Origin: Frankiaceae bacterium
GTDB taxonomy: Bacteria > Actinomycetota > Actinomycetes > BP-191
Direction: 5' to 3'
Length of the DNA: 64,000 nucleotides
Assembly (NCBI GenBank): GCA_035556555.1
Contig: DATMES010000042.1
Span: 62,001 to 126,000, forward strand
In this document: positions 8,541 to 18,797 of the stretch, one piece after another
Layout of the letters: each line of letters begins with the position of its first letter
How positions within the stretch are numbered: position 1 is the stretch's first letter
Position numbers and translations under genes: made by a program
The notes under the pieces: model-generated
Told to the model about the DNA's origin: nothing
Seen by the model: the letters and a program-made list of their open reading frames with translations, nothing else
The model's database searches: none

Positions 8541-9593
8541 TCAAGCGAGACCGAGCTCCGCGGCCGCGCGGTCGGGGTCGACGGGGATCACGACCGGCGC
8601 GGGCGCGCCGCTGATCGCCCACTCGGGGTCCTTGAGGCCGTGACCCGTGACGGTGCAGACGACCCGCGACCCGCGCGGCACGTCACCCGCCGCCGACGAC
8701 TGCAGCAGCCCCGCCACCGACGCCGCCGACGCGGGCTCCACGAACACCGCCTCGCGCCGCGCCAGCAGCCGGTACGCCTCGAGGATGCGCTTGTCGGTCA
8801 CCGCCTCGATCGTGCCGTGCGACTCGTCGCGCGCGAGGATCGCGGTGTCCCATGACGCGGGGTTGCCGATGCGGATCGCCGTCGCGATCGTCATCGGCGC
8901 GGCCACCGGCTTGCCGGTCACCAGCGGCGCCGAGCCCGCGGCCTGGTAGCCGCGCATGATCGGCAGCGACGTCGTCACGCCGTCGCGCTCGTACTCCCGA
9001 TAGCCCTTCCAGTACGCCGTGATGTTGCCGGCGTTCCCGACCGGCAGGCAGTGGATGTCGGGCGGCGAGCCGAGCGCGTCGCAGACCTCGAACGCCGCCG
9101 TCTTCTGACCCTCGATGCGGAACGGGTTGACGGAGTTGACCAGCGTCACCGGGTAGTTCTTCGAGAGGTCGCGCGCGAGGTCGAGGCACTCGTCGAAGTT
9201 GCCGGTGACCTGCAGCAGCGTCGCGCCGTGCACCAGCGCCTGCGCCAGCTTGCCGAGCGCGATCTTCCCCTGCGGCACGAGCACGGCGCAGACCAGGCCG
9301 GCACGGGCGGCGTACGCCGCGGCACTCGCCGACGTGTTGCCCGTCGAGGCGCAGATGACCGCCTTGCTGCCCTCCTCGACGGCCTTCGTGATGGCCATCG
9401 TCATGCCGCGGTCCTTGAACGACCCGGTCGGGTTCGCGCCCTCCACCTTGAGGTGCACGTCGCACCCCGTCTGCTCGGAGAGGTACGGCGCCGGCACCAG
9501 TGGCGTGCCGCCTTCGAGCAGCGTGACGACGCGCGCGTCACGGTCGACGGGCAGCCGGTCCCTGTACTCCTCGATCACGCCGCGCCAGGCCAC
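8541..9593 (-). CDS. thrC: Threonine synthase
   Basis: A 350-aa PLP-dependent fold-type II enzyme converting O-phosphohomoserine to threonine. The PLP lysine lies in [11 protein letters not shown], the [17 protein letters not shown] segment binds the substrate and cofactor phosphate, and [13 protein letters not shown] is the glycine-rich PLP-phosphate loop. This is the short, actinobacterial-type ThrC. The GTG start overlaps the hom stop codon by one base, indicating translational coupling. Confidence 0.95.
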
Positions 9594-10879
9594 TAGTCCC
9601 CGCCTTCCACGCGCATGACCGACGTGACCGCGCGCACGACGTCGAGCGAGCGCAGCGTCTCCACCGTCCGCCGCAGCGCCGCGTCCGACGCGGTGTGCGT
9701 CACGAGCACCAGCGTCGCGTCGTCGCCGTGCCCCTCCTGGCGGACCGTGCCGATCGACACGTCGTTGTCGGCGAACGCTGTCGCCACCGCCGCCAGCACA
9801 CCGGCCTTGTCGGCCACGTCGAGGTTGACGTGGTAGCGCGTCACGACGTCGTCCATCGACAGCGCGGGCAGCGAGGCGTACGACGACTCCCCCACTCCGC
9901 GCGAGCCCGACCGCAGGTTGCGCGCCACAGCGACGACGTCGCCGAGGACGGCGCTCGCCGTCGGCATTCCGCCGGCGCCACGGCCGTAGAACATCAGCTG
10001 CCCCACCGACTCGCCCTCGACGAAGACTGCGTTGTACGCATCGCGCACCGACGCCAGCGGGTGGTGCAGCGGGATCATCGCCGGGTGCACGCGGACGGAC
10101 ACGCCTGAGCCCGCACGCTCGCAGATCGCGAGCAGCTTCACGACCCGCCCCATCGCCTTCGCGCTCGCGATGTCGGCGGCGGTGACGTCGACAATCCCCT
10201 CGCGGTGTACGTCCTCCACGGTGACCCGCGAGTGGAACGCGATCGACGCGAGGATCGCCGCCTTCGCCGCCGCGTCGAACCCCTCGATGTCCGCGCTCGG
10301 GTCGGCCTCCGCGTAGCCGAGCGCGGTGGCCTCGTCCAGCGCCTCAGCGAAGCCCGCGCCCGTCTCGTCCATGCGGCTGAGGATGAAGTTGGTGGTGCCG
10401 TTGACGATGCCGATGACCCGCGAGATGCGCTCTCCCGCAAGGCTCTCCTTCAACGGCCGCAGCAGCGGGATGCCGCCCGCGACGCTCGCCTCGAAGTACA
10501 GGTCCACGCCCGCCGCCGCCGCCGCGTCGTGGATGGTCGCGCCGTCGGAGGCGAGCAGCGCCTTGTTGGCGGTGACGACCGGCTTGCCCGCGGCGAGCGC
10601 GGAGAGCAGCAGCGTCCGCGCGGGCTCGATGCCACCGATGACCTCGACGACGATGTCCACGTCGTCGCGCGTGACGAGCGCCGCCGCGTCGGTCGTGAAC
10701 AGCGCCGCGTCGACCTCGACGTCGCGCCTGAGCCCGAGCCGCCGTACCGCGATGCCCGCGATCTCGACCGGCGTCCCCACGCGGTGCGCGAGGTCGGCGG
10801 ACTGCTCCTGGACGAGGCGTACGACCGACGACCCGACGACGCCGCAGCCGAGCAGCGCGACGCGCAGCGGCCGCGTCAC
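9593..10879 (-). CDS. hom: Homoserine dehydrogenase with C-terminal ACT domain
   Basis: A 428-aa NAD(P)-dependent enzyme reducing aspartate semialdehyde to homoserine. It has an N-terminal Rossmann motif ([15 protein letters not shown]), the conserved GTTNFIL segment, and [20 protein letters not shown] in the catalytic domain. The last ~80 residues ([20 protein letters not shown] onward) form an ACT domain, commonly used for threonine feedback. The GTG start at 10879 overlaps the stop of the upstream small membrane gene in a GTGA. Confidence 0.95.
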
Positions 10880-11079
10880 GGCTGGTCCTTGGTGACGCGC
10901 TTCGTCAGCGCGCGGCCCATCGCGAGCGACCCCGCGACGGAGCCGAGGATGACGACTGCCGACAGCACTCCCCAGACGACGAGCGCACCGACGCTGCCGC
11001 CAGGACGGCTCGCCGCCCAGAGCAGCGCGACGAGCCACGCGACGAGGCAGCCGACGAGCGCGTTGCGCGTCATGGTCAT
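10876..11079 (-). CDS. Small two-TM membrane protein in the lysA-hom operon
   Basis: A 67-aa protein with two hydrophobic segments ([17 protein letters not shown] and [20 protein letters not shown]) and a basic C-terminus (TKRVTKDQP). Its ATG overlaps the lysA stop (ATGA), and its own stop overlaps the hom GTG (GTGA), so it is locked into the operon. I do not recognise the family. A membrane regulatory or transport accessory role is possible but there is no direct evidence. Confidence 0.8.
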
Positions 11080-12416
11080 CCGGGCCCCCCGCGGGCGCGC
11101 GTAGCGCGGTCGTGGGGTTCCGCCACGTCCAGCGCGAGCAGGTCCTCTTCCGTCTCGCGGCGCACGACGAGCCGCGCCTCGCCGTCGCGCACCGCGACGA
11201 CGGCCGGGCGAGGCACGTGGTTGTAGTTGCTCGCCATGGAGCGGCAGTACGCGCCCGTCGCCGCGACGGCGAGCAGGTCCCCCGGCTTCACGTCGGCGGG
11301 GAGCAGCGCGTCGCGCACGACGATGTCGCCTGTCTCGCAGTGCTTCCCGACGACGCGGGACGCGACCGGCGCGGCCGTCGACGTGCGCGAGGCGAGGACG
11401 CAGGTGTACTCGGCGCCGTACAGCGCGGTCCTGATGTTGTCGCTCATGCCGCCGTCGACCGAGACGTACGAGCGGATGCCGTCGACGTCCTTGACGGTGC
11501 CGACCTCGTACACCGTGATCGTCGGCGGGCCCGCGATGTGGCGTCCGGGCTCGACGGCGATGCGCGGGACGTTCAGGCCCGCGATGCGGCACTCGGTCTC
11601 GACGATCGTGCGCAGCTGCTGGGCCAGCGCCTTAGGCGGGATGGGGTCGTCGCCGGCGACGTACGCGATGCCGAGGCCGCCGCCGAGGTTCAGCTCCGGC
11701 AGCTCGATGCCGTGCTCGTCGCGGATGCGCACGAGCAGCGACATGACGCGGTGCGCGGCCACCTCGAAGCCGGCCGCGTCGAAGATCTGCGAGCCGATGT
11801 GCGAGTGCACGCCGACCAGCGCGAGCGACGGCGCGTCGAGCACCCTGCCGACCGCGTGCGCGGCCGCGCCGGACGCCAGCGAGAAGCCGAACTTCTGGTC
11901 CTCGTGCGCCGTCGCGATGAACTCGTGCGTGTGCGCCTCGACGCCGACCGTCGCGCGGACGAGGACCCGCTGTGTCACACCGCGTTCGGCGGCGATGGCG
12001 GAGACGCGGCCGATCTCCTCGAACGAGTCCACGACGATCCGCCCCACGCCCGCCTCGACCGCGGCGACGAGCTCGGCGTACGACTTGTTGTTGCCGTGGA
12101 AGCCGATGCGCTCGGGCGGCACGCCGCCGCGCAGCGCCAGCGCCAGCTCGCCGCCGGTGCAGACGTCGAGCGAGAGCCCCTCGTCGGCGACGATGCGGGC
12201 CATGGCGGAGCAGAGGAACGCCTTGCCGGCGTAGTAGACGTCGCTGTCGGGGAACGCCTCGCGCCAGGCCCGGCACCGGGCTCGTACGTCGGCCTCGTCG
12301 AGGACGAACAACGGCGTGCCGTGCTCCCGCGCGAGGTCGGTGACCGGCACACCGGCGACGGCGAGGACCCCGCCCTCGTCGGACGCGGTGAGCGGCCAGA
12401 CCGCGGCGTCGAGCAC
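11076..12416 (-). CDS. lysA: Diaminopimelate decarboxylase
   Basis: A 446-aa PLP enzyme of the alanine-racemase fold (type III) making lysine from meso-diaminopimelate. Features include [15 protein letters not shown] with the PLP lysine, [43 protein letters not shown], and the C-terminal GKHCETGDI and [12 protein letters not shown] motifs carrying catalytic Cys and Tyr. The GTG start lies 4 bases after the argS stop, the usual argS-lysA order of actinobacteria. Confidence 0.95.
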
Positions 12417-12420
12417 GCCG

Positions 12421-14064
12421 TTACATCCGTTCCGGGGCGGTGACGCCGAGCAGCGCCAGGCCGTTGGCGAGGACGGTGCGCGTGGCCTCGCAGAGCCAGA
12501 GCCGCGCGGTGGTCAGGTCGGGCGGCGGGCCGTTCTCCCCCGGCAGCACGCGGCAGACGTCGTAGAAGCGGTGGTAGACCCCGGCGAGCTCTTCGAGGTA
12601 GCGCGCGACGCGGTGCGGCGCGTCGAGCTCGGTCGCCGAGCGCACGATCCGCGGGAACTCGCCCAGCGCGCGCAGCAGGTCGCCCTCGCGTTCGTGGGTG
12701 AGCAGCGCGGCGTCGTACGTGCTCCCGCGCTCGATGCCCAGCTCGGCGGCGTTGCGCAGCACGGAGGAGATGCGCGCGTGCGCGTACTGGACGTAGAAGA
12801 CGGGGTTCTCGGCGTCGTGCCGGGTGACGAGGTCGATGTCGAGCGTGAGGTCGCTGTCCATCGAGGAGCGGACGAGCGAGTACCGCGCGGCGTCGTTGCC
12901 GACGGCCTCGATGAGGTCGTCGAACGCGACGAACGTCCCCGCGCGCTTGCTCATCTTCACCGGCTCGCCGCCGCGGGTGAGGTTGACCATCTGGCCGATG
13001 AGCAGGTGGAAGTCGCGCTCCGGGTCGTCGCCGTAGCAGGCGACCATGGCCTTCATCCGGCCGGTGTAGCCGTGGTGGTCGGCACCGACCTGGATGACGA
13101 CCTTCTCGGCGCCGCGCAGCCGCTTGTCGAGGTAGTACGCGCAGTCCGCGGCGAAGTACGTCGGCGTGCCGTCGCTGCGTACGAGCACCCTGTCCTTGTC
13201 GTCGCCGAAGTCGGTGGTGCGCAGCCAGATCGCGCCCTCCTCGTCGAAGACGCGGCCCTGCGCGCGGAAGCGTTCGATGGCCTGGCTGATCTCGCCCGAG
13301 GTGTGCAGCGCCTTCTCCGACGTCCACACGTCGAACTCCACGCCGAACGCCCGCAGCGTCGCCTGGATCTCGCCGAGGAGCACCGCGAGTCCGCGTTCCT
13401 TGAACCACGCCAGCGCCTCGTCCCGGGGCAGGCCGAGAACGTCGGGGCGCTCCGCGAGGAGAGCCTGCGCGGTCTCGTCCACGTAGTCGCCGTGGTAGCC
13501 GTCCTCGGGGACGTCCTCGCCGCGCGCGCGGGCGTACAGCGAGGCGGCGAGGCGGTCGGTCTGCGCGCCGGCGTCGTTGACGTAGTACTCGCGCGTCACG
13601 TCGTGGCCGGTCGCCTCCAGCAGCCGCGCGAGCGCGTCGCCGCAGGCCGCCCAGCGCGCGTGCCCGACGTGCATCGGTCCCGTCGGGTTGGCGCTGACGA
13701 ACTCCAGGTTGACCTTGCGCTTGCCGCCGGCGTCGGAGCGTCCGTACGCCGCGCCCTTCTCGACGATCGTGCCCGCGAGCGCGCCGAGCGCGTCGCCGGC
13801 GAGCGTGATGTTGAGGAAGCCGGGACCCGCGACGTCGACCTTGCTGATGCCGTCTGCCTCGGTGAGCCGTGCGGCGAGCAGCGCGGCGACGTCGCGCGGG
13901 GACCGCCCGAGCGGCTTGGCGAGCTGGAGCGCGACGTTGGTGGCGTAGTCGCCGTGCTCGCGCTGGCGGGGGCGCTCGACGACCACCGTGCCGGTCATCG
14001 CGTCGGGCCCGAACTCGGCCGCGACGGCGTCCGCGACGAGGCTCGCGAGGTCGGCGGGGGTCAC
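12421..14064 (-). CDS. argS: Arginyl-tRNA synthetase
   Basis: A 547-aa class I aminoacyl-tRNA synthetase. It has an N-terminal Add1 domain, the HIGH-type motif in [15 protein letters not shown], an intact KMSK loop ([11 protein letters not shown]), and the C-terminal DALR anticodon-binding domain from about [15 protein letters not shown]. It charges tRNA-Arg; a tRNA-Arg(CCG) gene lies 1.5 kb away at 15620. The GTG start at 14064 opens the amino-acid synthesis operon, and the receiver gene upstream ends 25 bases before it. Confidence 0.95.
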
Positions 14065-14088: not shown

Positions 14089-14460
14089 CTACGTGTTTGC
14101 GAGCCGCCGGACGGCCTCGACGAGGTCGTCGGGGTCGAACGGCTTCGTGAGGTACTCGTCGACGCCGATGCCCTTGCCGCGGCGGAGGTCGGCCTCCTGC
14201 GCGCGGGCGCTGAGCAGGATCACCTTGATGTGCGCGGTGTCGGGGTCGTTGCGCAGCTTGGCGGCGGTCTCCCAGCCGTCGAGCCTCGGCATCATGATGT
14301 CGAGCGTGATGACCGTCGGGTCGACGTGGCGGACCTTGTCCAGCGCGTCCTGGCCGTCCTCCGCGGTGTGCACCTCGAAGCCCTCGAGCTCCAGGTTGAC
14401 GCAGATGAGCTGGCGGATGACGGCGTCGTCGTCGACGACGAGCACGCGTTCGCCGGACAC
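14089..14460 (-). CDS. Stand-alone response regulator receiver protein
   Basis: A 123-aa protein that is essentially one CheY-like receiver domain. It shows the acidic pair VLVVDDD, the phospho-acceptor Asp in VITLDIMMPRLDGWE, the switch residue in VILLSARA and the conserved lysine in EYLTKPFDPDDL. There is no output domain. The GTG at 14460 was chosen for its GGAGG about 8 bases upstream, although the frame extends to 14523. It lies upstream of argS on the same strand. No histidine kinase is in the window, so its partner is unknown. Confidence 0.85.
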   Translation of the reverse strand: MSGERVLVVDDDAVIRQLICVNLELEGFEVHTAEDGQDALDKVRHVDPTVITLDIMMPRLDGWETAAKLRNDPDTAHIKVILLSARAQEADLRRGKGIGVDEYLTKPFDPDDLVEAVRRLANT

Positions 14461-14516
14461 CGGCCCCACCTCCGTTTCCTGACGCACGCTACATCCACAA
14501 ACCCGGTCAGACCCTC

Positions 14517-14545
14517 CTGACAACGGCGGAACACCGCCATACGAT
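14517..14545 (+). promoter_or_regulatory. Predicted SigA-type promoter of the M43 protease gene
   Basis: A -35-like ctgaca (14517-14522) and a -10-like tacgat (14540-14545) are spaced by 17 bases, 36 bases before the ATG at 14582. By eye only. Confidence 0.4.
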
Positions 14546-14581
14546 CAGCGTCCTTCGTCGTGCGTCCGAGAGGAGCGGCTC

Positions 14582-15463
14582 ATGCGCCGCCTGCTGTCCA
14601 CGCTGGTCACGTCCGGGATGCTCGCCGTTCCCGTCGTGGCGTACCCCCTCGCGGCCTGCCTGCCGGCGCACGCCGAGGAGTCACACGCGGCGCGCGGCTT
14701 CGACGGCGCGCGCGAGCCCTCGAACATGGCCGGCGGCGACGAGGTCCCCGACGGCGCCAAGCGCAACCCCAAGGGCTACACCGCGACCATCCCCGTGTAC
14801 GTGCACGTCATCAGCTCCGGACCGACCGCCGCCGAGGGCAACGTGCCGACGAGCCAGGTCGAGCAGCAGGTGAGCGTGCTGAACAAGTCGTTCCAGGGGA
14901 CGTACGGCGGCTACCGGACGCCGTTCTCGTTCCGGCTCGCCGGCATCACGCGGACGCAGAACGCCGCGTGGTTCGCGATGGGCTACGGCTCGCGCGAGGA
15001 GCGGGTCGCGAAGGCCGCGCTGCGCCAGGGCGGCGCCGACGCGCTGAACATCTACACGACCAACGGGGCGAACGACGCGCTGCTCGGCTGGGCGACGTTC
15101 CCGTCGGCGTACAAGAGCCTGCCCGACCGCGACGGCGTCGTCGTGCACTACGGCTCGCTGCCGGGCGGGTTCATCGACCGCTTCGACCTCGGCCTCACCG
15201 CGACGCACGAGGCGGGGCACTGGCTGGGGCTGTTCCACACGTTCCAGGGCGGGTGCAGCGCGAGCGGCGACCGGGTCGACGACACGCCGATGCAGCGCAC
15301 GCCGACCCGCGGCTGCCCCATCGGCCAGGACACCTGCTCCGCGCCGGGCCTCGACCCGATCCACAACTACATGGACTACAGCGACGACGCCTGCTACACG
15401 CAGTTCAGCGCGGGGCAGTCGCAGCGGATGACCGAGCAGTTCCTCCACTACCGCGCATCCTGA
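14582..15463 (+). CDS. Secreted M43-family (pappalysin-like) zinc metalloprotease
   Basis: A 293-aa exported protein with a signal peptide over residues 1-31 (MRRLLSTLVTSGMLAVPVVA). The catalytic site is HEAGHWLGLFHTF: H209, E210, H213 and H219 match the metzincin HExxHxxGxxH consensus, and NYMDYSDD further on is the Met-turn. Cysteines in GGCSASG, RGCPIGQDTC and DACYTQF probably form disulfides, as in ulilysin-type M43B enzymes. These cut peptide bonds outside the cell. A promoter-like sequence lies directly upstream and no operon partner is visible. Confidence 0.9.
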   Translation: MRRLLSTLVTSGMLAVPVVAYPLAACLPAHAEESHAARGFDGAREPSNMAGGDEVPDGAKRNPKGYTATIPVYVHVISSGPTAAEGNVPTSQVEQQVSVLNKSFQGTYGGYRTPFSFRLAGITRTQNAAWFAMGYGSREERVAKAALRQGGADALNIYTTNGANDALLGWATFPSAYKSLPDRDGVVVHYGSLPGGFIDRFDLGLTATHEAGHWLGLFHTFQGGCSASGDRVDDTPMQRTPTRGCPIGQDTCSAPGLDPIHNYMDYSDDACYTQFSAGQSQRMTEQFLHYRAS

Positions 15464-15487
15464 TCGGCCAGTTCTCGGTCGTCGCCC

Positions 15488-15541
15488 GCTCGTTCTCTGC
15501 GGTCCGCGCGCCGGTCCCACGCGTGGTGATCTTCAGAGAAC
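15488..15541 (-). repeat. Dispersed repeat family R1, copy 1
   Basis: On the minus strand this 54-base element begins gttctctgaagatcaccacg and ends cagagaacgagc, so its tips form an inverted repeat. Copies lie at 42648-42700 and 60507-60560. It sits between the M43 protease and tRNA-Arg. Confidence 0.65.
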
Positions 15542-15619
15542 CAGCGGAGCGCGGGGCCGCGACCGGGCAAAGGCCCGCGCGGCGTACGCGACCCGTCGGG
15601 TAGCATCGGCGGGTCCTGA

Positions 15620-15694
15620 GCCCCCGTAGCTCAGCGGATAGAGCACCGCCCTCCGGAGGCGGGGGCGCAGGTTCGATTCCTGCCGGGGGCACCA
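15620..15694 (+). tRNA. tRNA-Arg, anticodon CCG, CCA encoded
   Basis: The cloverleaf folds cleanly: 7-bp acceptor gcccccg/cgggggc, D-stem gctc/gagc, anticodon stem ccgcc/ggcgg around loop ctccgga (anticodon CCG, reading CGG), 4-base variable loop, and T-stem gcagg/cctgc with loop ttcgatt. The 3' CCA is encoded. A 15-base copy of the 3' end follows immediately. Confidence 0.95.
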
Positions 15695-15710
15695 CTGCCG
15701 GGGGCACCAC
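15681..15710 (+). repeat. Tandem duplication of the tRNA-Arg 3' end
   Basis: The unit tgccgggggcaccac occurs twice head to tail (15681-15695 and 15696-15710). The first covers the last 14 bases of the tRNA, including CCA, plus one base. It could be slippage or an attachment-site scar; no integrase gene is present. Confidence 0.85.
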
Positions 15711-15880
15711 TCATCGCGTGCCTGCGAGCCCGACGTGCGATCTTGGCCGCGCGCGTGGCACTATCCCGCTCCCAGCACAGTGATGGTCGTTCAGCGGTCG
15801 GTACACCGGCCCGCGATGCCCCGCGACCGCGCGTTCCGTCTGCCTGGGCGGCTCCCCTACTCACGTAAGGCAGCCAGCAC

Positions 15881-16729
15881 ATGAGGAAGACGTACGCCGC
15901 GGCGCTCGCCGCGGTCATCTCGCTGTCCCTGGGCACGTCGCCCGCCACCGCGGTCGAGTACCGCGTCGGGCCCGACCCGACGTCCGCCGCGATCGAGACG
16001 AACGGTCCGTTCGCCTACGCCTCGATCACCGTCGCCGACGCGGCCACGCCGGGCTTCGGCGCCGCGACGATCTACTACCCGACCGACACGACGCTGCCGG
16101 ACCTCGGCGCCGTCGCGATCTCGCCCGGCTTCACGGAGACGCAGTCGGCGATCTCGTGGTTCGGCCCGCGGCTGGCGTCGCACGGGTTCGTCGTCATCAC
16201 GTTCAACACGAACTCCGGCTGGGACCAGCCTGCCGCGCGCGGCACGCAGCTGCTCGCCGCGCTCGACTACCTCACGGGCACCAGCGCGGTGAAGGACCGC
16301 ATCGACGTCACGCGGCTCGCGGTCATGGGTCACTCGATGGGCGGCGGCGGCTCGCTGGAGGCGATCAAGACGCGCCCTGCGCTGCAGGCTGCGATTCCGC
16401 TGACGCCGTGGCACACCGACAAGACGTGGCCGGAGCCGAGCACGCCGACCCTGATCATCGGCGCGGAGAACGACTCCACGGCCCCGGTGTCGAGCCACGC
16501 CGAGCCGTTCTACGAGAGCCTCTCGGCCGCCCAGGACAAGGCGTACCTGGAGCTCAACAACGCCGGCCACAGCGTCACGAACAGCGCCAACGCCGCCACG
16601 TCGAAGTACTCGATCGCGTGGCTGAAGAGGTTCGTGGACAACGACACCCGCTACGACCAGTTCCTCTGCCCGGCACCCGCGCCGAGCTCGCAGATCCAGG
16701 AGTACCGCGCGACGTGCCCGCACGCGTAG
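15881..16729 (+). CDS. Secreted cutinase / polyester (PET) hydrolase-like alpha/beta-hydrolase
   Basis: A 282-aa exported enzyme with a signal peptide to about residue 24. It closely matches the Thermobifida cutinase/LCC/IsPETase family: HGFVVITFNT, nucleophile loop GHSMGGGGS (Ser152), TPWHTDKTW (Trp177), GAENDSTAPV (Asp198), AGHSVTN (His230) and WLKRFVDNDTRYDQFLCP. Cys263 and Cys279 can form the conserved C-terminal disulfide. The family hydrolyses cutin and other polyesters extracellularly. Phe84 replaces the oxyanion-loop Tyr. The residue after His230 is Ser, as in IsPETase, where most cutinases have Phe, while His206 and Phe210 are cutinase-like. The second disulfide of IsPETase is missing. 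It stands alone after tRNA-Arg. Confidence 0.9.
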   Translation: MRKTYAAALAAVISLSLGTSPATAVEYRVGPDPTSAAIETNGPFAYASITVADAATPGFGAATIYYPTDTTLPDLGAVAISPGFTETQSAISWFGPRLASHGFVVITFNTNSGWDQPAARGTQLLAALDYLTGTSAVKDRIDVTRLAVMGHSMGGGGSLEAIKTRPALQAAIPLTPWHTDKTWPEPSTPTLIIGAENDSTAPVSSHAEPFYESLSAAQDKAYLELNNAGHSVTNSANAATSKYSIAWLKRFVDNDTRYDQFLCPAPAPSSQIQEYRATCPHA

Positions 16730-16802
16730 GCGGCTGCCCGCGAGCCGAACGGGCGGGACATCGTTTACAGTGACGTCCCTTTCGTCCCCTCGAGGAGCCC
16801 CC

Positions 16803-16961
16803 ATGCCCCGCAAGCTCAACCTGAAGCGCGACGTCCTCCAGGAGCTCAGCTCCGACGAGCTCGGCGTCGTCGTCGGCGGTACGCGCGAGACGCTGTACAG
16901 CTGCTACGCGTTCGTCAGCTGCGACATCGTCAACTGCCTGCTGTCGGTCGAGAAGCAGTAG
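16803..16961 (+). CDS. RiPP (lanthipeptide-like) precursor peptide candidate 1
   Basis: A 52-aa peptide with a GAGGAG site upstream. The leader part, MPRKLNLKRDVLQELSSDEL then GVVVGG, fits the K-L-x-L-K-x-x-x-L-x-E-L-S-x-x-E-L-x-x-V-x-G-G pattern of many lanthipeptide-type leaders with a double-glycine cleavage site. The 26-residue tail after GG is rich in Cys, Ser and Thr (three Cys in YSCYAFVSCDIVNC), as a modifiable core would be. A second peptide with a related leader lies at 17838-17999 on the other strand. No dehydratase, cyclase or peptidase-transporter gene is within the window, so any modification is inferred. Confidence 0.65.
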   Translation: MPRKLNLKRDVLQELSSDELGVVVGGTRETLYSCYAFVSCDIVNCLLSVEKQ

Positions 16962-16972
16962 CACCGCACGAC

Positions 16973-17009
16973 CCCCGGCCCGGCTCCCGTAAGGGACGCC
17001 GGGCCGGGG
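16973..17009 (+). terminator. Rho-independent-type terminator after RiPP-like gene 1
   Basis: Arms ccccggcccggc and gccgggccgggg pair perfectly, and the inner tccc/ggga extends the stem. It starts 11 bases after the stop and is followed by catttcc. Confidence 0.7.
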
Positions 17010-17137
17010 CATTTCCGTACGGGTGAAGCACCCGGTGCCGGCGGCTTGCGGCGGCGCCGGCACCGGGCGGTCTCGAGGACGCGCTGGGTGACGCGTCACC
17101 CGAAGTACGCGCGAGCACCCCGGATCGGGACATACGA

Positions 17138-17173
17138 CGAGGGCGCCGCCCCGCGAACGGAACGGCGCCCTCG
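17138..17173 (-). terminator. Terminator hairpin downstream of the 17189-17593 gene
   Basis: Perfect 11-base arms cgagggcgccg and cggcgccctcg around a 14-base loop, 15 bases past the stop codon on the minus strand. Confidence 0.6.
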
Positions 17174-17188
17174 GCGAACGAGCAGGTG

Positions 17189-17593
17189 CTACGCGACGTA
17201 GTCGCTGACCTCGCCCCTGCCGCCGACGACCTCGAGCGTGATGGTGTCGCCCGGGGTGGTGTGGAAGTTCGTGCTGCACGTGGCGTTGCCCGAGTCGATG
17301 CACGACGCGGACTGGACACCGTTGACGTACGCGACGCAGCGGCCGCCGGTGAGCGTGCAGGTCAGGGTGACCGCGTCGGTCGCGGTGATGTACGAGCACG
17401 AGATGGCCGACGAGCTGTGGCCGATCGTGATCGGGTTGGCCCCGGTCGGCGTCACCGTGATGGTGACGTTGCTCGTGGAGCTGCCGGTGTTGTTGACCGC
17501 GCAGCCGTTGGCGGCCTGGGCCGGCGAGGCGAGCGCGAGGACGGGCGCCGCGGCGACCGCGGCGGCGGCGACGAGGCGAGCGAGCTTGGACAA
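17189..17593 (-). CDS. Secreted protein of unknown function (134 aa)
   Basis: The TTG start at 17593 is preceded by GGGAGGAG and yields a clean signal peptide (SKLARLVAAAAVAAAPVLAL then ASPAQA). The mature part is Thr/Ser-rich and beta-prone (SSTSNVTITVTPTGANPITI), with Cys residues in NGCAVNN, ISCSYI, LTCTLTGGRC, ASCIDS and ATCSTN, suggesting a small disulfide-stabilised beta-sandwich. I do not recognise the family. The leader between a promoter-like sequence near 17800 and the start is unusually long. It is flanked by the two RiPP-like peptide genes and ends before a good terminator. Confidence 0.75.
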   Translation of the reverse strand: MSKLARLVAAAAVAAAPVLALASPAQAANGCAVNNTGSSTSNVTITVTPTGANPITIGHSSSAISCSYITATDAVTLTCTLTGGRCVAYVNGVQSASCIDSGNATCSTNFHTTPGDTITLEVVGGRGEVSDYVA

Positions 17594-17778
17594 GGTGGAT
17601 CTCCTCCCACACGGGTGCCCGCCAGGGTCCTGGCCGGGCCTTGTACGGCGAACGGCACCCAGCGGGGGCGGTGGTACCCGCACGCACATGGCTGGGCCGC
17701 ATGGCGCACGGAGAACGCTGCCGGGCCACGTCCTGGGACGGGCTCGGCGCACCGCGGGGCATGCGGGCGAGTTGTCGG

Positions 17779-17807
17779 AGATTGTCACATTTCGAGCGGG
17801 TTGTAAA
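17779..17807 (-). promoter_or_regulatory. Possible promoter for the 17189-17593 gene
   Basis: Reading the minus strand, TTTACA (17807-17802) and CAATCT (17784-17779) are 17 bases apart in an unusually AT-rich patch. This would give a leader of about 180 bases. By eye only. Confidence 0.3.
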
Positions 17808-17837
17808 TAGCTGTTTTCGTTGGTGCAGACGGAAGAA

Positions 17838-17999
17838 TCAGCAGGGGTTGAGCGAGTAGTTGCCGGTGCAGCCGCAGGTCGGCAGCAGCGACTCGAACGT
17901 GTCGCACGGCAGGCCCGACGCGCCGGCGACGGAGACGAGCTCGCCGGTGGTGAGCTCGGTCAGTGCCTCGCCGCGCAGGGTCAGCTTGCGGGACGTCAT
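17838..17999 (-). CDS. RiPP (lanthipeptide-like) precursor peptide candidate 2
   Basis: A 53-aa peptide too short for usual ORF cut-offs. Its start is preceded by GAGGAGA. The leader MTSRKLTLRGEALTELTTGE then LVSVAGA has the same K-L-x-L-x-x-x-x-L-x-E-L-x-x-x-E-L pattern as candidate 1, with the GG replaced by GA. The tail carries Cys32, Cys42, Cys44 and Cys53 with interspersed Thr and Ser (LPTCGCTGNYS). It lies 39 bases upstream of nothing coding on its own strand and about 65 bases downstream of the livF stop, so it may share the ABC operon's transcript. No modification enzyme is seen. Confidence 0.65.
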   Translation of the reverse strand: MTSRKLTLRGEALTELTTGELVSVAGASGLPCDTFESLLPTCGCTGNYSLNPC

Positions 18000-18065
18000 G
18001 GTGTCTCCTCGAGGGGTAGGGGCGATGCGTACGGAGTTCGGCGCGGAGGCGGCGACTCCTGGCCG

Positions 18066-18796
<731 letters not shown>

Positions 18797-18797
<1 letters not shown>

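Follow-up and report, generated by a model that had tools for sequence, protein, structure and literature searches.

A dispersed family of predicted class I lanthipeptide precursors and a single LanBCT locus on another contig

Two small peptides with related leaders and Cys-containing tails are encoded in the window (the whole 64,000-nucleotide stretch of DNA analysed here), with no lanthipeptide enzyme beside them. Here, we ask what these peptides are and which enzymes would act on them. The features concerned, in window positions, are as follows.

15881..16729 (+): PET-hydrolase-like secreted esterase directly upstream of precursor 1 (Pfam PF12740, E 1.5e-107)
16792..16797 (+): GAGGAG ribosome site of precursor 1
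16803..16961 (+): precursor 1, a predicted lanthipeptide precursor of 52 aa, whose leader (16803-16880) ends in VVGG and whose core (16881-16958) has 3 Cys
17189..17593 (-): small secreted protein encoded downstream of precursor 2; each of the two sister species has a homologue (35-39% identity) at the equivalent place in the gene order
17838..17999 (-): precursor 2, a predicted lanthipeptide precursor of 53 aa, whose leader (17919-17999) ends in VAGA and whose core (17841-17918) has 4 Cys
18005..18010 (-): GAGGAG ribosome site of precursor 2
18066..18797 (-): livF-like ABC ATPase, last of a branched-chain amino-acid transporter gene run; context kept in three species

Precursor 1 reads MPRKLNLKRDVLQELSSDELGVVVGG (leader) and TRETLYSCYAFVSCDIVNCLLSVEKQ (core); precursor 2 reads MTSRKLTLRGEALTELTTGELVSVAGA (leader) and SGLPCDTFESLLPTCGCTGNYSLNPC (core). 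The particulars given in the initial annotation (coordinates, shared leader, VVGG and VAGA junctions, 3 and 4 Cys, and GAGGAG sites) were all located in the sequence, and the tails are indeed rich in Cys, Ser, and Thr, with no relationship between the two. Window positions 16600-18200 contained no sigma-70-like promoter or terminator-like site, and the small secreted protein had no Pfam match. A secreted M43-type metallopeptidase (pappalysin family; Pfam, E 9.4e-16) lies at 14582-15463 (+), with a tRNA-Arg (CCG) at 15620-15694 (+) between it and the esterase.

Both leaders match K-L-x-L-x4-L-x-E-L-x3-E-L and scored 44.6 bits (precursor 1; profile E-value, 4.8e-12) and 41.1 bits (precursor 2; 4.8e-10) with a leader hidden Markov model (HMM). 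When the 15,300 candidate ORF starts were shuffled, 7 matched at E<=10 (best, 10.6 bits), and when they were reversed, 3 did (best, 7.1 bits), which rules out chance resemblance.

The peptides had been described as two orphans; no enzyme adjoins them, as stated, but the number was understated, about 60 such precursors being present in the same genome (G000; 3.98 Mb, 71 contigs, 99.9% complete). Single-peptide searches (E<=1) of 60 genomes, including this one, gave 51 and 52 matches in G000 with precursors 1 and 2, respectively, 24 and 22 in G001, and 42 and 45 in G002, G001 and G002 being the two other species of the genus. A leader profile of 42 rows (A2), counted per genome at E<=0.01, matched 60 places in G000, 27 in G001, and 54 in G002. 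Of 148 leader HMM candidates, the 10 scoring below 25 bits were set aside as not belonging to the family, and the other 138 precursors were read out from the retrieved stretches (57, 27, and 54, respectively). The three extra matches in G000 are intact precursors on contigs C62 and C36 and one precursor cut by the start of contig C48.

In G000, the 60 precursors occupy 25 loci on 18 contigs, with 8, 7, and 7 members in the largest. Across the three genomes, 76 precursors stand first in an array and 62 begin <=100 nt after another precursor, the distance being <=0 for 19 of them. A common promoter or operator for the arrays was considered and set aside, since a 7-mer count over the 76 first-in-array upstream regions returned weak C-rich words only (e.g., CCCCTAC, 12 seen against 1.1 expected). 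With A2 at E<=1e-4, 393 genomes of the class gave matches in the 3 genus genomes and none in the 390 others; the weak single-peptide matches beyond the genus, in 4 and 25 genomes with a best E of 0.01-1, were therefore taken as chance. This class-wide search scored at most 21 candidates in the genus genomes, and the counts per genome used here are those obtained at E<=0.01. A viral link was likewise discarded, as the one IMG/VR match (L089) falls within a 257-aa ORF, not a GG-leader peptide.

Genome-wide searches put no LanB, LanC, or YcaO gene in the window, in agreement with the initial annotation, and no C39 gene either. YcaO was absent from all three genus genomes (control positive), and a search for LanM via DUF4135 gave 0 matches in the same genomes, with its control likewise silent. 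The proposed search of the whole genome for lanthionine synthetases yielded one LanB, two stand-alone LanC whose zinc motifs are intact, and one C39-type LanT; in total, G000 has one LanB, one C39 protein, and four LanC-like matches, the last either stand-alone or LanKC associated. One LanC, the LanB, and the LanT lie together on contig C2 (positions in stretch L073).

9490-10713: LanC, genomic neighbour of LanB
10710-13718: LanB, with a 4-nt overlap with LanC
14146-16344: LanT, with Pfam Peptidase_C39, membrane, and ATPase domains

This LanBCT locus is flanked on the opposite strand by five precursors that carry the common leader (two to one side, three to the other), an arrangement that supports the earlier suggestion that the window peptides are modified in trans by a distant enzyme. 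With enzymes found and the leader kept in relatives, the genome shows the opposite of what the initial annotation had named as evidence against itself (no RiPP enzyme and no conservation of the leader). The cluster also adjoins a 2112-aa RHS/YD-repeat-like secreted protein, named by eye (L073:2556-8894, -).

LanB has both Pfam dehydratase halves (glutamylation and elimination) above cut-off. Its HMMER alignment with NisB (4wd9) shows R464, R784, R786, E823, R826, and H961 to be identical, these positions including those that we take to be the elimination residues. Alignment with MibB and 9g04 pairs R71, R75, T77, and D111 with the same letters, giving R..R.T plus D at the glutamylation site. 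In PMC7296275, R87, T89, D121, D299, and R464 are essential in NisB. Both stand-alone LanC proteins keep the AHG, WCYG, and CHG motifs (zinc Cys and Cys-His) in comparison with NisC or the 8byk cyclase, and LanT, which is full length, aligns over nearly all of it with the C39 transporter 4ry2. By domain content and alignment, the C2 locus holds the whole enzyme set of a class I lanthipeptide system, its catalytic residues being conserved.

LanB identity is 66-68% within the genus and <=46% outside it (GTDB scan, best 80 of 313). G001 has a second LanB, a contig-end fragment 86.6% identical to its full copy, and G001 and G002 have two C39 genes each; the description "one machine" is cleanest for G000.

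We consider it highly probable that the two window peptides are class I lanthipeptide precursors belonging to a dispersed, 60-member family served by this one machine on another contig. Most of the family lies far from the enzymes, so the dispersed precursors are assigned to LanBCT through leader likeness.

Leaders and cores differ sharply in conservation. Mean pairwise identity is 56% for leaders (last 26 residues, 91 leaders long enough) and 9% for cores (first 20 residues), and the cores are no more alike than chance. Among the 138 precursors, L-22 is present in 138, L-20 in 137, E/D-17 in 138, L-15 in 137, and L-12 in 137; in the C-terminal half, E/D-8 is present in 131, L-7 in 133, and V/I-4 in 132, and the junction is GG in 74 and GA in 53. 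The average core has 33 residues (12.5% Cys, 14.3% Thr, 6.4% Ser, 1.2% Lys), with 4 Cys in 52 of the 138. Every core has one or more Cys and no fewer Ser/Thr than Cys, and a Ser/Thr lies upstream of each of the 563 core Cys.

This anatomy bears on the strongest alternative, related to the secreted peptide class that the initial annotation named as its second possibility, namely, that these are double-glycine peptides that the C39 transporter just cuts and exports with no rings, as happens with unmodified bacteriocins or pheromones, LanB and LanC acting on the five adjoining precursors only. The C-terminal half of the genus leader is a C39 recognition motif, fitting the substrate rule L(-12)-x3-E(-8)-L(-7) plus V(-4) and GG/GA/GS, as given in PMC6363468, and weak matches to peptide families such as BlpC and VP1 were obtained below cut-off. 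We nonetheless judge this alternative improbable: precursors adjoining LanBC and dispersed precursors have the full leader in common, including its N-terminal L-x-L-x-x-E block, for which we propose a role as the LanB handle; Ser/Thr at least equals Cys in every core; and G000 has a single LanB and a single C39 protein.

The result with NCBI's own leader model weighs against the favoured reading. NF038153 (NCBIfam class I lanthipeptide leader L1a) scored precursor 1 at 15.5 bits (curated cut-off, 22) and one family member at 23.8 bits, with precursor 2 not listed, and the genus leaders appear to be a divergent branch of the NF038153 layout. Neither window peptide matched a Nif11 leader.

Other LanC-type loci exist in G000. 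The second stand-alone LanC (C1:35281; L069:16823-18500, about 35 kb) has its own adjacent precursor and may serve a subset of the family. That precursor is divergent and contains the internal repeat VSDGSCVC twice. At about 75-80 kb of C1 (L071:68-2595 and the end of L070), a LanKC-like gene, a further LanC-like gene, and two ABC transporter genes probably form a class III lanthipeptide locus, named by eye and apart from this family. Modification by the LanKC-like enzyme of this locus, or by a radical-SAM enzyme, could be imagined, given the presence of these genes and of one precursor that matches an rSAM-modified leader family below cut-off. It is very unlikely, since A2 found no leader homologue beside the LanKC-like locus (nearest, C1:62903), while five flank LanBCT and one adjoins the second LanC, and the genus genomes lack YcaO.

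Conservation across the three species was assessed by grouping cores at a score cut-off of 65 with single linkage (shuffled maximum, 49 in 4,000 draws). Of the 138 cores, 85 fell into 17 groups, which are loose families that single linkage chains at lower cut-offs; 14 groups occur in at least two genomes and 7 in all three, and 53 cores are single. Precursor 1 has a relative in G002 (L108:7143), TKETLYSCLAFQSCRIVNC, with which it keeps T[RK]ETLYSC-AF-SC-IVNC; the neighbourhood, including the esterase, is not kept there. Precursor 2 has syntenic relatives in G001 (L093:10645) and G002 (L105:9993), with SGLPC...CTGxY...PC in common. In all three species, the gene order is the substrate-binding protein, permeases, and ATPases of the branched-chain amino-acid transporter, then the peptide, and then the small secreted protein. 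Precursor 2 lies 66 nt downstream of the livF-like ATPase on the same strand in the window, and the corresponding gaps in L093 and L105 are about 50 and 35 nt, estimated from BLAST ends. Common neighbours were also seen for the LanBCT locus, for L082/L100/L114, and for the arrays L069/L091/L106 and L072/L109.

Among related precursors, 27 independent pairs gave a pN/pS of 0.60 for leaders and 0.83 for cores; these pairs show only mild constraint, and cores on the whole are free or weakly constrained. That the precursors are decaying duplication leftovers without present function, as the freely varying cores, their pN/pS, and the array sizes differing between species might suggest, is scarcely credible, since all 138 read-out frames are intact, 115 of the 138 have a Shine-Dalgarno-like site, and the position and core motif of precursor 2 are kept in three species, with other loci and arrays syntenic too.

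For the favoured reading, a family served by one LanBCT machine, the following steps are predicted. LanB would bind the N-terminal half of the leader (L-22, L-20, and E/D-17), glutamylate core Ser/Thr with Glu-tRNA, and eliminate glutamate to leave Dha/Dhb. The clustered LanC, and perhaps the second stand-alone LanC, would then add Cys thiols to form (methyl)lanthionine rings. The C39 domain of LanT would bind the C-terminal half of the leader (L-12, E/D-8, L-7, and V-4) and cut after GG/GA, and LanT would export the ringed core. A constant leader joined to free cores would let one machine handle many unrelated sequences.

Core net charge is mostly -2 to 0. TPGC (nisin) and CTxTxEC (mersacidin) are lipid II motifs, and motifs of these types were found in none of the 138 cores. 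The neutral-to-acidic charge and the lack of both motifs argue mildly against nisin-like killing. Our guess is that the small, ringed, neutral-to-acidic products form a library that is secreted for interaction with other cells, and are not nisin-type lipid II killers.

The arrangement was also sought in other lineages with related LanB proteins. A2, applied to 45 of the best-80 LanB genomes, matched 10 at E<=0.01, with a maximum of 8 places in a Phycisphaerae metagenome-assembled genome (MAG). NF038153, applied to 49 of the best-80 genomes and the 3 genus genomes, gave 30, 18, and 27 places in the genus (the 30 in G000 at E<=0.05, against 60 with the genus profile); outside the genus, large counts were found in four Kordia species (74, 62, 51, and 36) and a Cytophagales MAG (21). 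Kordia matches are dispersed over several contigs or the chromosome, and each of the four Kordia genomes has one LanB; the Cytophagales MAG has three. A loose regular expression applied to nine stretches picked out 16 Kordia ORFs that look like GG-leader peptides, most with Cys-rich and variable cores and one lacking Cys. In Kordia algicida and K. aestuariivivens (L220 and L224), GG-leader peptides contain eight or nine Cys and tandem CPIDT/CPIET-like core repeats, resembling repetitive substrates of lanthipeptide enzymes. Like the genus, Kordia thus combines a single LanB per genome with 36-74 leader-family matches, which argues for a recurrent arrangement and against the genus being unique. 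Kordia differs in lineage (Bacteroidota, Flavobacteriaceae), in leader wording (LxLNKK-x-I/V-SNL), and in its LanB, where an N-terminal-domain frame of only 755-770 aa makes the dehydratase look split, whereas the genus LanB carries both halves. For Kordia, passages of PMC7477175 and PMC10734526 mention a lanthipeptide cluster and RiPP clusters only.

On balance, we lean toward the broader view that one class I LanB/LanC/LanT set naturally processes about 60 unrelated, dispersed precursors. This would be a Glu-tRNA-dependent counterpart of the prochlorosins, with separate origins in at least the genus and Kordia and with some precursors long held at particular operons, as precursor 2 is beside the branched-chain amino-acid transporter. 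If so, a class I LanB/LanC pair with about 60 native substrates would be a naturally broad tool for making peptide libraries, and the use of such repertoires could be compared between two lineages that are far apart. In the literature searched at the level of abstracts, from which subscription papers are mostly missing, no class I system was described whose precursors are dispersed and number in the dozens, an absence that such sources do not prove.

Among known systems, natural one-enzyme-many-substrates lanthipeptide making is that of class II (ProcM and SyncM), the prochlorosins being the known example of the pattern in PMC10783134 and PMC12328550. In marine picocyanobacteria, one enzyme (ProcM/SyncM) is accompanied by 29 to 79 genome-scattered precursors with hypervariable cores (PMC10783134) and double-Gly leaders (PMC6363468). 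The genus resembles the prochlorosins and synechococsins in having one machine, dozens of dispersed precursors (count and dispersal being the features compared), and hypervariable cores; it differs in that those systems are class II, with Nif11 leaders and one LanM, whereas the genus has a leader of about 26 aa with no Nif11 match and has LanB and LanC as its enzymes. NF038153 has the same leader layout, with several genus members below its curated cut-off. Nisin-type systems (NisB/NisC/NisT) have the same LanB and LanC catalytic residues, but each of their clusters has one precursor, whose cationic core bears a lipid II motif, and LanP serves as a separate protease, whereas the genus has a C39 LanT and mostly neutral-to-acidic cores. 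Cluster-based mining beside LanC misses most precursors in G000, where 5 of the 60 lie at LanBCT and 1 beside the second LanC. In PMC7268733, precursors were mined near LanC, a design that, according to that study, under-counts the prochlorosin precursors lying far from their LanM.
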